Source: Helicobacteraceae bacterium | Lineage (GTDB): Bacteria; Campylobacterota; Campylobacteria; Campylobacterales; SZUA-545 | Direction: 5' to 3' | Assembly: GCA_031258155.1 (NCBI GenBank) | Contig: JAIRNH010000001.1 | Coordinates: forward strand, 1-48,769 | DNA: 48,769 bases | In this document: positions 6,045 to 13,014 of the stretch, piece after piece | Layout of the letters: the number at the start of each line of letters is the position of its first letter | How positions within the stretch are numbered: position 1 is the stretch's first letter | Made by a program: the position numbers and the translations under genes | Notes under the pieces: model-generated | Database searches by the model: none | Told to the model about the DNA's origin: nothing | What the model saw: only the letters and a program-made list of their open reading frames with translations

Positions 6045-8423
6045 TTAGCGCGCCGCTATCTTTTCACGGCAGAGATTGCTCCACGGATCATCGTTAATTT
6101 CAAGATTGGCGCAACGCTGAAACGCTGTCGCCGCCAGATCGACGCTTGCGTTTTGCTCTAAAGCCTCGCCGAGCGTAAATAGCGCCTTGGAGCGATCGCG
6201 AATATCTAGCGCTTCGTTTAATAGCGTTTGCAAAACCAAGATCGCCTCGTTTGGCTTGCCCTCTTTAAGCGCGGCGCGGGCGAACGCCATCTCAGCTTCG
6301 GGCGTAAACGCCTTAACAGCCGTTAATCGCGTTCGGTTAACGAGCTTTTTGGAGTAGTCGTATTGGCTCTTAGAGTCGTTTTGATCGGCGCTTAAAACGA
6401 TCATAGCGGCATATATATCCATCAAGCGCGGCTCTTTGGGAAATTGCGATTCGACGATCGCGGCTATCTCGCCCATTCGTTTAGGCTCAAAACCGGTTCG
6501 GCGGTAAGAGTCAAACAGGCGGATATAGCGATCCGCGCCGATCGGCTCTTTTAGGGCGCGAAGCATTTTGATATAGCGCTCCTCGCCGTCGATATAGCTC
6601 GGATAGTCCGCCATAGCATAGAGCGTATCTAGCCGTCTAGCCGACCACTTCGCTCCTTTAGCCGGCGAATATTTGCGAATGTTGGTTTGCGCGATCTCCA
6701 GCGCGAGGTTAAAGTCGCGCGCCTTGTAAGCGCAGTCAAAATAAGCCTCGTCGCTTCTGATAGAAACGCCGAGCCTACGATCGCGACTAAACCGCGCGGC
6801 GGCGGCGCAATCGCCCGCTTGCAAGAAAGCGTCTAACAGCGAGCGCTCCATCTGTCGCATTTGCGCGTCGAAATTGTGAAACAAAGCCTTATCCAGCTTG
6901 TCTAACTTTGGTAAAATCTCGCTTGCTTCGGCGTAACGACCAAGCCGAACAAGCAATTTAGACTTTTCGTATAACGCGCGGTCTGCCGCTTCGTCGTCCG
7001 GATATTTTGTAATAATCTCGTCATAAAGCGCCAGATTTGCCTCCTGCGTCTGTCTGCCTATCGAGAACTCCAGCAGATCGCGCTCTTTTCTGGCTAACGG
7101 CGCTTGCGGCGAAAAATCAAACTCGGCAAGGTAACGCTCGTAAGTGATCAGCGATTTTTCGCTCATATGCGCGAAGTTTTGCCATCTAGCCAGACTTAAC
7201 AACGAATTTTCATACGTTTGCGACGTCGAGTCGATATGCTCTAGAACAATCTCGCCCAACAGCGCGGCTGGGACGTATAGTTTTTGCTCCGCCATCAGGT
7301 TCATGAGGCGCTCGCTTTCGTCTAGCTTATCCAGAAAAAACTCCGGAGCGCTTTTTAATATCTTTTCGTAAAACTCGGCGGCTTTTGGAATATCGTCCTC
7401 TCGAATAGCCATATCCGCCAAACGCGAGGCGGCGAGCGCGGCGGCGGAAACGTCTTGCGAGTTAAACAAAACGCTCTCGTAACCTAACTTCGCGTCGAAA
7501 GCCTTGCCTTCGATCATGGCGCGATCCGCTTTGTAGATTCGCGCGAAGTCGGAAAGAGGATTTTTGGGATATTCACGAATGAGCGTATCGTAATGATACC
7601 GCCCGTCGGCGATAAGCCCTAGTCGCGTTTGCGCGTTGGCTAGGAGCAGTAAAATCTCCGGCGTCTCTTTATGAAAGGCGTAAGCCTCCGTCCAAGGCTT
7701 AGCGGCGGCTATTAGCGCTTCGTCCTGATCGCCGAGCTTGTCTAAAATCTTTATCTTAAGCGCAAGAAGCTCCGGCATAAACAGATGTTTGCCGTCGCTT
7801 CGCGCCAGCGCGTCGTCGATCATTCGCTGCGCGTCGGTCAAAAATCCAGCCTCATACTGCGCTAAAATCCGCGAAAACTCCTGTCCGTCCTCGCTTATGG
7901 CGCGATTGGCGATCGGAGCGCCGTTTAGATCAAGCGCGCCGACGGAGGGAGGTTCAAACGGCGGAAAAACGACGGGAAAGTTTAATCCGCCGCCGCTTGA
8001 CGCGCGTAAAACAGGCGGCTTGTTTTTGTATCCGATCGCGATCCAGCGCGACGAAGAGGTTATTTCGCCGTTTGGCGCGATCGGAATCGAGGAAAGCGTG
8101 GGCGTCTCCATCGGATACACAAGCGCATTTTGCTTGAACGCAATCTTTATTGTAAAGCGCTTTGGGTCTAAAATCGGTTCGACGCTGAAAAAGGGATTGT
8201 CGATTGGCTGCGGCTTCAGCGCGGGAACGCGATCAAACTCGCAAACCATATTGCCCGCTTCCAATAACGTAGCGGGATTAACGCGGCAAGAAAATGGGCG
8301 ATCCTCTTTGAGCGTAAGAGCTAGGTAGCTCTCTTTGTCTATAATGCCCGTCGTCTGCGTAATATCAAGCGCGTATAACGACGAGACGACAAGCGGCAAG
8401 ATTACGCCAAAAAACTGTTTCAT
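6045..8423 (-). CDS. pflA: PflA-like flagellar motor protein (paralysed flagella), exported TPR-type
   Basis: PflA is a periplasmic component of the enlarged Campylobacterota flagellar motor, needed for rotation rather than filament assembly. The 792-residue product begins with a signal peptide (MKQFFGVILPLVVSSLYA). A beta-rich N-terminal region (about 20-175) follows, with PFSCRVNP, CEFDRVPA and the FF-x-V-E pattern, then a long helical region (about 200-790) of degenerate TPR-like hairpins (EAGFLTDAQRM, LLANAQTRLGLI, ALYEKSKLLVRLGRYAEASEI). Family length is near 790. In H. pylori pflA directly follows the nuo operon, and here it follows nuoN after an intervening accessory locus, which supports the call. 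The assignment rests on length, domain plan and position; a generic exported TPR protein is the alternative. Confidence 0.72.
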   Translation of the reverse strand: MKQFFGVILPLVVSSLYALDITQTTGIIDKESYLALTLKEDRPFSCRVNPATLLEAGNMVCEFDRVPALKPQPIDNPFFSVEPILDPKRFTIKIAFKQNALVYPMETPTLSSIPIAPNGEITSSSRWIAIGYKNKPPVLRASSGGGLNFPVVFPPFEPPSVGALDLNGAPIANRAISEDGQEFSRILAQYEAGFLTDAQRMIDDALARSDGKHLFMPELLALKIKILDKLGDQDEALIAAAKPWTEAYAFHKETPEILLLLANAQTRLGLIADGRYHYDTLIREYPKNPLSDFARIYKADRAMIEGKAFDAKLGYESVLFNSQDVSAAALAASRLADMAIREDDIPKAAEFYEKILKSAPEFFLDKLDESERLMNLMAEQKLYVPAALLGEIVLEHIDSTSQTYENSLLSLARWQNFAHMSEKSLITYERYLAEFDFSPQAPLARKERDLLEFSIGRQTQEANLALYDEIITKYPDDEAADRALYEKSKLLVRLGRYAEASEILPKLDKLDKALFHNFDAQMRQMERSLLDAFLQAGDCAAAARFSRDRRLGVSIRSDEAYFDCAYKARDFNLALEIAQTNIRKYSPAKGAKWSARRLDTLYAMADYPSYIDGEERYIKMLRALKEPIGADRYIRLFDSYRRTGFEPKRMGEIAAIVESQFPKEPRLMDIYAAMIVLSADQNDSKSQYDYSKKLVNRTRLTAVKAFTPEAEMAFARAALKEGKPNEAILVLQTLLNEALDIRDRSKALFTLGEALEQNASVDLAATAFQRCANLEINDDPWSNLCREKIAAR

Positions 8424-8829
8424 ATCCTAAATAAAAAGCAAACCGCGTTCCTTGAAGCCAATAATAGCCGATTGCGGCTCGCAAACTATTGAACAGCGTC
8501 GCGCGCCTAAACTTAGCTGGCTAGCGTTGCCATAAAAGAGACGCAAAGAGCATAGCGGAAATTGTTCAAGGCAACGCGACAATCGGCGAACGCGGCGATT
8601 GAGACTGATCGTTTTGCGCTCTACCTTGTTCGACATTTTATGAAAACCATATAGGCGCGACAAGGCAAAAAGCGCGCGCTAAAATTAAAAGCGATTGATC
8701 GTAGCGCCCGCAAATAAGGGCGGCGCGAGCGCGAGCGGCGAGTCGGGATAAGGGCGGCTGTTTTGCGTTGCGCCGATTTCGATATTACGCCAAAGCGACG
8801 CAAACGCGAAAACCTTAAATGTCCGAAAC

Positions 8830-9290
8830 AAAGCCCGCGCTTACTCGTCTGCCCTCGACAAACCTGTAGCGCTCCCGCGATCTTTTTATTAGACGCGTTA
8901 TAAACGCCTACGTTGAACCGCAATCCGTCTCTAAACTTTATAACCGCGCCTATATCGCTGTCGCATAAGCTCTGTTTTTCGTCGCGGTTGCCGCCGTAAT
9001 ATCCGATCTCTCCTTATACGAACCCGTAAAAGCGTATTGTCCGCTCAACCTTTCCGTGATTTTAACGTCGATATTGGGCGCTTGCCATACGCTTTGAAAC
9101 GCTGTTTAGCGGTTGATCTTTGCTTTAGTTTCGGTCAAATCTAACGGCGTTCGTTGTAAGAGCGCGCGCCGCTTGAAAAAGCGCGGTTGGCTACGCCGCC
9201 TTTTACGATCGGATCGTAGCCAACATGATAGACCGCGTAAACGCGAGGGCTTATATTCGATCTAAACGCCTCGCCTATCGGCTCGGCGCG
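8830..9290 (-). pseudogene. Relic of a TonB-dependent outer-membrane receptor (C-terminal part)
   Basis: The minus strand carries receptor-like fragments in shifting frames. From right to left they are AVYHVGYDPIVKGGVAN, then ITERLSGQYAFTGSYKERSD, then GYYGGNRDEKQSL, then DIGAVIKFRDGLRFNVGVYN with ASNKKI. The last resembles the closing barrel strands of TonB-dependent receptors, where a phrase like LRFNLGVYNLFNKK is common. Several stops and frame changes intervene, so no protein is made. The rest of the gap (8424-8830) has only short frames without support. Confidence 0.45.
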
Positions 9291-9298
9291 ACATGATA

Positions 9299-11339
9299 CT
9301 AATAACTGCACCTTCTCCAATTGTAGTAATTATCCCAAAGAATCTGACCCTTGTCATAAGAGGTACCGCCACTGTTATGTATTCTTATCTGTATTTTATC
9401 GCCGCTGATATCTTCGACAAAAGCCTGGCATGGAAATAAAGCGCCAAACAAGAGTGTCGTATCCCTGCAGACTAATTCCCCTATAGATTTACGCGCCATG
9501 TATGCCTCGTTTTTCCTGCGTTCGCGCTCCGCCTGTTCTTTCTCCCATTCTTCTTTCAATCTAGCTTCTTCTTTAGCCTGAGCCTCCAGACGCGCCCGAT
9601 AGGCTTTTTCGTCGGCTTTTAATTGCGCTAAGTCTTCTTGCGCGGCGGGAATCAGCGCGGATTTCGGAACGGCGGCTATAAAATCGTTCAAAGCGGCAAT
9701 GGAGGTTCTGGCTAAATCGTAATATTTTTTTTCCGCCTTGTCCCGATGAACGGATTGAGGGCATAGCTCTATGAATGCCTTCATTTCGGCAATGGTTTTG
9801 GCCAGTTCGTAATACTTTTTTTCCGCCTCTGCCCGATGGATGGATTGAGGATATAGCTCTATGAAAGCCCTCACTTCGTCTATGGTTTTGGCTAGATCGC
9901 AATACTTTTTTTCAGCCTCTGCCCGATGGATGGATTGAGGATATAGGTCTATGAACGCCTTCACTTCGGCAATGGTTTTGGTCAGATCGCAATACTTTTT
10001 TTCAGCCTCTGCCCGATGGATGGATTGAGGATAACTCTCTATGAAAGCCTTCACTTCGTCTATGTTTGAAGCCTCTTTAAGAAGGTAGCCCTCCACAAAC
10101 TGTTCCGGCTTAAGGAGAGTTCTGGGCGGAACGGCGGTGAATTTATCGCCGTCCGCTCGGATCTCCAATTCAATATCCTTGGCGTTGGCTTGCAAGATGC
10201 GCTTAAAATCCTGAGCATAAGACATCTTTACTGGGACGCGCATGGGCAGAGTGAAGTTCTGGTCGATCTGAGCTCGAAAAATTACAGAAAACTCCTGTTT
10301 ATCCGCGTTATATTCAACCTTGTCTAACATCGGGGCGCCGTAAAGAAAATGGAAAACGTCGCTGTAATAGCCCATGATAACACTCTGGTTCTTCTTGAGG
10401 TTCTCTCTGGTCTGCCGGCAATCTCTTTTACGTTTAGCGTCTCTCTCTCGCCAAGCCGCTAGAGCGTCTTGGTAACCCTTTTCGGCGTCGTCTAGCAAGG
10501 ATTTTACCTTTTTGTCATAATCCGCGGTGATTTCAAATTCGCCCTTAGGCGGAATGGTTGCCTCGGTTTTGACCGGCTTCGCTTCAGCGGCGCAGATTCC
10601 GGCAAGGTCTTTCTTGGCCATTTCCGCCATTAGCCTGGTTGGCGCCGCCCTGACTTTGTTGACATCGCTGGGGGAAACCGCGCAGATGGCGTTATAACGG
10701 GCAGTCCTATCAAACCAGTCGTCCTGCTCACGCCAGTCTACTGGACGCCAAATACGTACTTTCGAGTAATTTATTGTACTGACGCTTATTGCGTCATAGT
10801 ATACAATACCGCCATCTTTTTTATAGTAATAGTCGTCATCTTTAGTTTTAGTCCAGTAACTTTTCTCACGTTTATCAGGAAGGAATTCATAAGAGTCCCC
10901 CAACTTTACCATCTCGTACCGGTTCGGCAATCTCCAGGGGATTACAGACGGGTAGTTTTTGCAATATGTCTCAGCTTCTCTATAAGTAACGCCTTCGAGC
11001 GTTTCAGAAAAGAACACCCCTTCATAAAAGAACATCCCCTTATAAAAGGAAGGCAGTTTCGCGTCGATATTCTTCCAGACAAATGTTCCGGCGCCGCCGA
11101 CGACAATCTTCGCTTTGTCAAGCTCGGTTACGTTGCCGTCGGAAGCGGTTTTCGATGGTTCTATCGCGCTCGAGGAATTTTCGCTCGCGTTCTCTTCGCC
11201 TGATTGCGCCGCGGCGAATGAACTGTTTGATTCAGCCGATTCGTCGGCTATTATTGGAGAGGTTAGACAAGTTAGAGCCGTTATTAGAGCTAAAAGCCCC
11301 CCCCCCCCGCTGTGGATTTACGCTACGAGCTAAAGTCAT
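9299..11339 (-). CDS. Probable phase-variable exported DUF1566-like repeat protein; out of frame as sequenced
   Basis: Function unknown. The main open frame runs from 11296 to 9299, but a proper start lies in another frame: ATG at 11339 with AAGGAAAAGCA upstream. Ten codons later comes a run of 12 G. With 11 or 14 G the frames join and the product begins MTLARSVNPQ-RGGG-LLALITALTCLTSPIIA, a plausible signal peptide. With 12 G translation stops soon after. Without the switch the first in-frame ATG is 11035, which lacks a signal peptide. Mature parts: a linker rich in S, E and A; a DUF1566/Lcl-type fold (YREAETYC, WRLPNRYEM, SYWT, VRIWRPVDW); a middle region; four 30-residue repeats (PQSIHRAEAEKKYCDLA type); an E/K/R-rich coiled coil; and a C-terminal domain ending NWRRCSY. 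It lies between nuoN and pflA, which are adjacent in H. pylori. Confidence 0.7.
9711..10070 (-). repeat. Four tandem 90-bp (30-residue) coding repeats
   Basis: The string AATACTTTTTTTC (with variants) recurs at 9721, 9811, 9901 and 9991 on the plus strand, an exact 90-bp period. Each unit encodes about SIHRAEAEKKYCDLAKTI followed by EVKAFIELYPQ. The inner copies are nearly identical in DNA and the outermost are diverged, as expected of a tandem array that expands and contracts by recombination. Confidence 0.85.
11297..11308 (-). repeat. Homopolymeric G12 tract (candidate phase-variation switch)
   Basis: Twelve consecutive C on the plus strand (G on the coding strand) lie 30 bases after the ATG at 11339. 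It is the longest G/C homopolymer I see in the window. Poly-G tracts of about 8-13 are the standard contingency switches of Campylobacter and Helicobacter surface genes. The count of 12 places the ATG and the main frame out of phase by one base. Confidence 0.85.
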
Positions 11340-11482
11340 TGCTTTTCCTTTTGTTAAGGTAGGATTGTAAGAATCAAATCTAACGGAATGATAACCGACA
11401 AACCTTAATGTAATATAAAGCCAGACTTTTGAAATTACGCGATTTAGTTTTTTGCGATTTATATCAGATTAAGTTTCGCCGC

Positions 11483-11508
11483 TTTGCGCCGCCGATCGAC
11501 GGCGCAAA
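11483..11508. terminator. Hairpin downstream of nuoN (second of a tandem pair)
   Basis: A perfect 9-bp stem, TTTGCGCCG/CGGCGCAAA, encloses an 8-base loop. It lies just beyond the first hairpin after the nuoN stop, so it may back up termination of the nuo transcript. The T-rich run on the minus-strand side is short. Confidence 0.45.
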
Positions 11509-11539
11509 TAAAACCGCCGCGCAAGATACGATCGCGGCG
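11507..11539 (-). terminator. Rho-independent terminator of the nuo operon
   Basis: Reading the minus strand after the nuoN stop, CGCCGCG pairs with CGCGGCG across an 11-base loop and is followed by GTTTTATTT. It lies 12 bases past nuoN, at the end of the 15-gene cluster. Confidence 0.6.
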
Positions 11540-11550
11540 CGCGGTCTCTT

Positions 11551-13014
11551 TTAATAACCGCCGGCGACGATTAGATCGTTCAAAGAGCCTAGTAGCGGCT
11601 CGATCCAGAAAAACGACGTAACGACCATTACGGCGGCTACTCCAAGCACGATCTTCAACGGAACCGCGCCGTTTTGATAATAAACCGTGCCGTCGTTATC
11701 CGACGGATCGCGCAAAAACATATAGACGATTAACTTTAGGTAGTAATAGACGGCGATCGCGCTATTGACCAACATAATAAGAGCGAGATAGAGATGATCG
11801 CTCGCTATCGCCTCGCCAATCAAATAGATTTTGCCGAAAAAGAGCGCAAACGGCGGAATACCGGCGAGCGAAAGCATAAAGATCGCCATAATCACGGCGC
11901 CCATAGGGCTAAGTTTTATCATGCCAGAAAACTTGCCGTAGGGGTGATCGAAACGAATATCCCACGTTTTGCTTGGGTGGCGCGAAATCCACAGCATAGC
12001 GAACGCGCCTAAATTGGTAAATAAAAATAAAACCCAATAAAGAAACAAGCCCGCGTGCGCCTCGCTGGAACCCATCACGAAAGCGCACATAACAAATCCG
12101 GCGTGGCTAATCGAGCTAAAGGCGAGCATTCGCTTAACGTCGTCTTGCATAAGCGCCAAAAGATTGCCTATCGTCAGCGTGGCGACGGCGACTATATACA
12201 AAAGCGCATAAACCGCGCGATCCGGACTTTGCGCTAAAAAATCAAAGAGCCTGATCGCCACGGCAAAACCGGCGATCTTAGGCGCTATAGACATATAGCC
12301 CGCCATAGGCGCGCTAGAACCCTCGTAAACGTCCGGCGTCCATGTGTGGAACGGCACGATAGAGAGCTTGAAGCCAAGCCCCGCGATAATAAACGCCGAA
12401 GCCGCCACGATCAAAGAGGTATGCTCGAAGCCGCTTGTTACTAACGCGCTTTGAATCTTGCCTATCTCTAAACTGCCCGTCGCGGCGTAAAGCAGCATTA
12501 CTCCAAAGATCAGCAGCCCCGCCGCGAGCGCGCCCATCGTAAAGTATTTAAGCGCCGCCTCCAACGCCTTGTCGCGGCGGTGCATGCTGATAAGCGTATA
12601 GAGCGCCAAAGAGCCGGTCTCGAGACCTATAACGATCACGATTAAATTATCGCTAGAAACCATAGCCGCAAAACCCGCCGCCATAAATAAAAACAGCGCG
12701 TAAAACTCGGCGAACTGATACTCCAAAAACCGCATTCCCGTGAAAGCTAACGGCATAAACAGTAGCGACGCGCCGATAATCACCCATAAAGAGGCTTTGG
12801 CAAGCCCGTCGATCAAGAGCGCGTCGAATAAACTCCGCTCGACAAAATCAAGGTAAAAAAGCGCCGCGATCGCCATAAGCAGCGCGGCAATCGTAATCGT
12901 GGCGAACGCGTTGCGTCCCGCGTTTTTGAAAAACAGATCGACGCTTAAAACGACGATCCCGCCGACGGCTAGAATCAAGATCGGCAGCAAAGAAACAAAA
13001 GAAAACGAACTCAT
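11551..13014 (-). CDS. nuoN: NADH-quinone oxidoreductase subunit N
   Basis: NuoN is one of three antiporter-like membrane subunits that carry the proton channels of complex I. The 487-residue, strongly hydrophobic product matches family length. Typical features include the conserved Glu in VIVIGLETGSLALYTL, a Lys-containing helix (GLGFKLSIVPFHTWTPDVYEG) and the DDVKRMLAFSSISHAGF motif. The nuoM stop overlaps its ATG by four bases (ATGA), indicating translational coupling. It is the last gene of the operon. Confidence 0.96.
   Translation of the reverse strand: MSSFSFVSLLPILILAVGGIVVLSVDLFFKNAGRNAFATITIAALLMAIAALFYLDFVERSLFDALLIDGLAKASLWVIIGASLLFMPLAFTGMRFLEYQFAEFYALFLFMAAGFAAMVSSDNLIVIVIGLETGSLALYTLISMHRRDKALEAALKYFTMGALAAGLLIFGVMLLYAATGSLEIGKIQSALVTSGFEHTSLIVAASAFIIAGLGFKLSIVPFHTWTPDVYEGSSAPMAGYMSIAPKIAGFAVAIRLFDFLAQSPDRAVYALLYIVAVATLTIGNLLALMQDDVKRMLAFSSISHAGFVMCAFVMGSSEAHAGLFLYWVLFLFTNLGAFAMLWISRHPSKTWDIRFDHPYGKFSGMIKLSPMGAVIMAIFMLSLAGIPPFALFFGKIYLIGEAIASDHLYLALIMLVNSAIAVYYYLKLIVYMFLRDPSDNDGTVYYQNGAVPLKIVLGVAAVMVVTSFFWIEPLLGSLNDLIVAGGY

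Follow-up and report, generated by a model that had tools for sequence, protein, structure and literature searches.

The locus described here bears on the question of how genes come under simple-repeat phase variation. In the stretch of 48,769 nucleotides from a Helicobacteraceae bacterium that was analysed (the window), one gene carries a run of 12 G between its start codon and its long reading frame. The second-longest G run on either strand of the window has a length of 6, and a first-order model predicts 0.0005 runs of at least 12 G. The features of the locus are collected in Table 1.

An earlier, sequence-only reading had placed a start with a ribosome site (ATG 11339) and a long frame on the two sides of the 12 G, one base out of phase, and direct reading of the sequence confirmed this arrangement. 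The main frame is open from 11296 to its stop at 9299 on the minus strand, comprises 665 codons and begins with LLALITALTCLTSPIIA followed by DES, the signal peptide being predicted to be cleaved in front of DES (..PIIA|DES). Counted from the start of the ATG, 31 bases precede the tract, and the arithmetic given previously is correct: 31 plus 12 bases leave the frame of ATG 11339 one base out of phase with the 665-codon body. Because start and body are out of phase by this one base, the gene is OFF as sequenced. Frame analysis indicates that a change in tract length at G12 would toggle the full-length product, as in phase variation, and with 12 G between start and body the locus lies above the PhasomeIt threshold, which asks for a tract of at least 9 G or C inside or adjoining a reading frame (PMC5953494). 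There is thus good support for a poly-G tract that acts as a frame switch within the signal-peptide region of an exported repeat protein, with the gene in the OFF state here.

Table 1. Features of the switch locus, in window coordinates (TBDR, TonB-dependent receptor).
Feature	Position	Strand	Basis
nuoN, left neighbour	11551..13014	-	NuoN equivalog NF004444, 655.7 bits
Whole insert, about 3.1 kb	8457..11550	.	Comparison with congeners G001 and G003, in which the nuoN-pflA junction is empty
Leader/promoter region in common with TBDR genes (TTTAT..TT....TTAAGGTT..)	11340..11422	-	Multiple alignment with C11, C17, C51 and G003
Shine-Dalgarno AAGGA	11350-11346	-	6 nt 5' of ATG 11339
Start codon ATG	11339-11337	-	Direct sequence reading
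OFF-state short ORF, from ATG 11339 to TAG right after the G12 tract, 16 codons	11289..11339	-	Sequence
G12 tract, predicted slipped-strand switch	11297..11308	-	Sequence reading, shuffles, first-order model
Signal-peptide hydrophobic core and cleavage region LLALITALTCLTSPIIA	11246..11296	-	Conserved with three TBDR signal peptides (LLAL[IV]TAL..)
Linker and TonB-box-like motif	11099..11245	-	Alignment; tblastn E 6e-10 to 6e-13 against C11, C17 and G003 TBDRs
Non-TBDR mature body, about 600 residues	9299..11098	-	Profile matches, relatives, composition
Lcl_C/DUF1566-like stretch	about 10996-10832	-	Sub-threshold Pfam match
3.9 tandem copies of a 90-bp unit (30-residue alpha-hairpin, TPR/YfiO-like repeat)	9704..10058	-	TRF; weak YfiO match
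Conserved C-terminal domain	about 9502-9308	-	Alignment of relatives
Decayed TBDR beta-barrel remnants, three frames	8821..9272	-	Collinear with TBDR residues about 439-712
pflA-like gene (DUF7494 and TPR), right neighbour	6045..8423	-	Orthologues 47-79% identical in genus and sister genus

The protein was searched for relatives. Besides the gene itself, the search returned two loci in the same genome (on contigs C17 and C11) and one in congener G003, all of them matching the first 70 residues only. These three loci are TonB-dependent receptors with plug and barrel domains, and their best resemblance is to CirA/IreA-type siderophore receptors, below the equivalog cut-offs. In the alignment, the homology starts about 80 bp before the ATG, runs through start, tract, signal peptide and linker and extends to the TonB box, VTELD..K(I/V)V. 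The box-like motif of the window gene reads VTELDKAKIVV (11131-11099) and is homologous to VTELDEIKVVS of the receptors; alignment and tblastn agree that the signal peptide, linker and TonB box of the receptor family are present in the window gene. Downstream of the TonB box (3' of about 11099), the alignment contains no recognisable homology to the receptors. In the case of the leader, local identities to the receptor genes are about 70%; a sigma-70 promoter consensus was looked for in it and not found. Judging by these alignments, the window gene opens with the 5' end of a TonB-dependent receptor gene, which supplies its start, tract, signal peptide and TonB box. In the chimera, the TonB box is probably carried along as a passenger, and a leader of receptor type may bring iron-responsive control with it. 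These receptor matches overturned the candidate view of the gene as an independent phase-variable locus. The earlier interpretation, a switchable exported repeat protein, is supported in part; it had missed that the 5' end is that of a TonB-dependent receptor, fused to an unrelated body.

The body itself is different in kind. Residues 67-665 of the ORF contain neither plug nor barrel: the plug domain PF07715 has no match in the window gene, with six matches elsewhere in the genome, and the C-terminal beta-barrel PF00593 is absent from the ORF, decayed remnants of it lying downstream only. The relatives of the body start with ordinary signal peptides or lipoboxes. Its C-terminal domain has 36-42% identity with exported proteins from other families of the Campylobacterota, and the homology is strong only at this C-terminus (42% over about 90 residues). 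GC3 of the body is 0.52 compared to 0.59-0.66 in neighbouring genes and receptors, a foreign-like composition. A DUF1566-type domain together with tandem repeats had been proposed from the letters alone. The repeats hold (3.9 copies by TRF), but the Lcl_C/DUF1566 match (PF07603, E 0.0011) scores 19.7 bits, below the Pfam gathering cut-off of 34.9; a relative of the body (L163) has the same weak match. In the single-sequence structure prediction, the helix pairs of the repeats reach a pLDDT of about 85-92, and the model outside these helical repeats is of low confidence. The near-identical 90-bp repeats (9704-10058) keep the frame, so that strains could differ in repeat copy number irrespective of the G tract.

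Several searches with the body or the whole gene returned nothing further. No relative of the whole protein was found in a first scan of the genome contigs, no orthologue of the whole chimera is known, a search across the phylum brought up no relative closer to the body, and a sequence search of solved structures with the body gave nothing meaningful. RNA families were absent from the region. An identity as a phage, plasmid or defence gene was rejected, as the body has no matches in viral contigs, plasmids, PHROGs or PADLOC. Because of the repeats and the exported relatives, our best guess from the sequence is that the body would act as a periplasmic or outer-membrane-associated scaffold or binding protein.

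The surroundings of the gene carry the second half of the argument. The gene had been described as sitting between nuoN and pflA. Both do flank it, but it is no ancestral resident: in congeners G001 and G003 (L150, L149) the two genes are about 40 bp apart and the site is empty, so that the window carries an insertion. The end of the spacer of this empty junction, TTCAAGGAACGCGGTTTGCTTTT, is retained in the window. Congeners G002, G004 and G005 carry unrelated genes upstream of pflA and are consequently uninformative on the empty site. Between the body and pflA, the barrel remnants match the G003 receptor with a tblastn score of 56.6 bits (E 4e-13), compared to at most 26.9 bits in 200 shuffles. 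The 665-codon body is open, next to a receptor remnant that is riddled with stops and frameshifts.

Four parts of the chimera are accordingly in place: an insert between nuoN and pflA, the 5' end of a receptor, an unrelated exported repeat body and, after this body, decayed barrel remnants. The simplest history that accounts for the empty site in congeners, the receptor 5' end and the collinear barrel remnants is one in which the receptor came first, although the order of events is inferred. A receptor gene would have inserted between nuoN and pflA, and recombination would then have swapped its plug and half of its barrel for the body of a foreign exported protein. This second step would have retained the promoter, tract and signal peptide of the receptor, with only the tract out of register. 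The frame would then be shifted by slipped-strand mispairing within the G run. In OFF cells, as sequenced, 16 codons would be translated before the stop; ON cells would make a precursor of about 680 residues and export it through Sec, giving a repeat-bearing envelope protein that is periplasmic or associated with the outer membrane. Overall, we assign a probability of roughly three in four (0.77) to this reading, i.e. a receptor-derived switch on a foreign exported body in the nuoN-pflA insert, in which slippage at G12 toggles the frame and the ON state yields a Sec-exported envelope protein.

To describe the tract beyond the window gene, related receptors were compared. In C17 the receptor carries G11 at the same place as the window tract and is in frame (ON), in C11 it carries G14 and is out of frame (OFF), and the receptor copy of congener G003 is without a long tract. 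Altogether, poly-G tracts of G8 to G15 occur at the 5' end of five of the six plug-domain receptor genes in the genome; two of them lie in the signal peptide and three just after the TonB box. In the latter three (G8 in C54, G15 in C53 and G11 in C12; L188 to L190) the tract directly follows the TonB box and lies outside the signal peptide; the C54 receptor is out of frame, those of C53 and C12 are in frame. Tracts in the same signal-peptide region were detected in Gx485_bin81 (L168, G8) and in congener G001 (G13). A receptor of the same family in Helicobacter marmotae (L172, NZ_NXLR01000001.1) has G10 in its signal peptide, and the switch design thus reaches the genus Helicobacter. Two receptor genes, L169 and L171, of the congener MAG Iy174_bin57 (JAISOU010000086.1 and JAISOU010000039.1; C48 and C13 of G004) do not differ in their first 206 nt once the tract is left out, yet have G14 and G8, respectively. 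They diverge just past the TonB box, with a right-hand breakpoint nearly as in the window gene, and the pair shows both a changing tract and copying of the 5' end. The L169/L171 pair, the sister tracts in mixed phase and the G10 of H. marmotae are good indirect evidence that the switch at the window locus would be live. Two observations that would have spoken against the sequence-only reading, a tract fixed at 12 in all relatives and relatives that lack the signal peptide, did not turn up: related cassettes carry G8 to G14, and the relatives of the body do have signal peptides.

Other explanations have to be weighed against this reading. The locus could be a dead remnant, in which a receptor gene was broken by insertion of the body, the out-of-frame tract is just one of its lesions and expression is not reversible. 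The OFF state, the clearly decaying receptor barrel at the flank and the fact that no orthologue shows conservation are all compatible with this. We nevertheless consider it unlikely, as the body keeps 665 open codons and its conserved C-terminal domain, the sole lesion sits at a tract prone to mutation, the body is joined in frame at the TonB box with its mature part complete, and sister tracts are ON in C17, C12 and C53. It is very unlikely that translation starts internally to give a cytoplasmic protein, with the upstream part irrelevant. ATG 11035 does open an ORF of 578 codons, but it would lose the first part of the domain; the relatives of the body have signal peptides or lipoboxes 5' of the equivalent region, and ATG 11339 has a good ribosome site that is common to the receptors.

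In the case of the assembly, contigs C51, C34 and C4 of the MAG break at such tracts, and cassette repeats do trouble assembly. That the chimera arose during assembly or binning, at a 5' end repeated among receptors, is nonetheless highly improbable: the longest stretch that the insert shares exactly with the receptor contigs checked is 32 bp including the tract, too short for the usual long-k misjoin, remnants of the receptor lie on the far side of the body, and nuoN and pflA bound the insert on both sides. Signal peptides are low in complexity, and the likeness of this one to those of receptors could be put down to convergence in an ordinary resident gene with a poly-G switch of independent origin. 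This is scarcely credible with homology that extends beyond the signal peptide to the untranslated leader, linker and TonB box, receptor barrel remnants that come after the gene and a site that is empty in two congeners. The receptor-derived chimera accounts for these features together: donor type, transferred switch, recipient body and the remains of the donor are all present along with an empty congener site, and the route is therefore readable step by step.

As a whole, poly-G runs are abundant in this lineage. The genome (1.94 Mb, 71 contigs) contains 55 runs of at least 9 G, about 20 of which are near contig ends and in part low-quality sequence, compared to about 2 expected. All six congeners searched, which are Helicobacteraceae bacterium MAGs (e.g. 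JAISMA010000157.1) with bin names suggestive of a termite-gut series, have 26 to 61 such runs per genome; in other genera of the family, five of the eight genomes contain either none or one. The locus thus displays a rich poly-G phasome in a Helicobacter-related lineage, outside the well-studied pathogens.

Several of these tracts deserve mention on their own. In a putative lipoprotein gene (L078, C19:91950), a G10 run separates the ATG region from the lipoprotein signal core (LALLAVVSAATLFTLVGC), which repeats the design of the window switch. Two loci, L104 (C55:23415) and L090 (C34:77), have 206 bp at 93% in common with different upstream flanks; this second cassette of tract and signal peptide has a poly-C before VRVVKSGILASFAFVLSLVFVPNVQA and belongs to a predicted exported barrel-like protein. 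At L068 (C4:70-85) and L085 (C26:44646), 154 bp at 96% are in common around a G15-G16 tract where the contigs break, next to an ORF that we take to be methyltransferase-like. The tracts of L089, L096 and L110 (C33, C48 and C71) lie within related ORFs with an 'IGFLDN(N/D)P' motif, sugar- or glycosyl-metabolism-like, which are possible phase-variable surface-glycan genes.

The window chimera, the L169/L171 pair (206 nt identical, then divergent) and the C34/C55 pair (206 bp, 93%, different flanks) suggest a wider idea, which we hold tentatively and with some doubt. The tract and signal-peptide 5' ends in the genus might be interchangeable 'switchable export cassettes', moved repeatedly between different and even unrelated bodies by recombination extending up to the TonB box or the end of the signal peptide.

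Comparison with known systems separates what is familiar in this locus from what is not. The tract of Neisseria pilC is located in the signal-peptide region, and the window gene has a pilC-like layout, with G12 inside the signal-peptide coding region, the start 5' and the h-region 3', although only as a functional analogy. Both are intragenic poly-G frameshift switches, that of pilC passing between ON and OFF with G9-20 (PMC5953494), but the 5' end of the window gene is that of a receptor and its body is presumably unrelated to PilC. In the oipA/hopZ type of Helicobacter pylori, a repeat in the signal-peptide part of an exported-protein gene likewise shifts the frame (PMC10564699); there, however, the repeats are CT dinucleotides, the proteins outer-membrane Hop proteins and the switch native, whereas the window has a poly-G tract that is borrowed. 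HmbR and HpuAB of Neisseria are TonB-dependent iron receptors under repeat-driven phase variation (PMC5953494); the window keeps only the 5' end and decayed remnants of a receptor, and the switched protein is a non-receptor. A precedent for the transfer is Campylobacter jejuni cj1421c/cj1422c, phase-variable genes that recombination has left with common sequence about the tract; the pair is described as the sole evidence of this effect seen in Campylobacter (PMC6321876). The PhasomeIt authors proposed switch transfer by recombination and found only this homologous pair (PMC6321876), which has about 1000 bp of homology, whereas in the window the tract moved onto a body without homology to the donor. 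Poly-G tracts in ORFs, signal-peptide repeats and phase-variable iron receptors are therefore already known; the unusual feature here is that a switch has passed in its entirety to a non-homologous gene.
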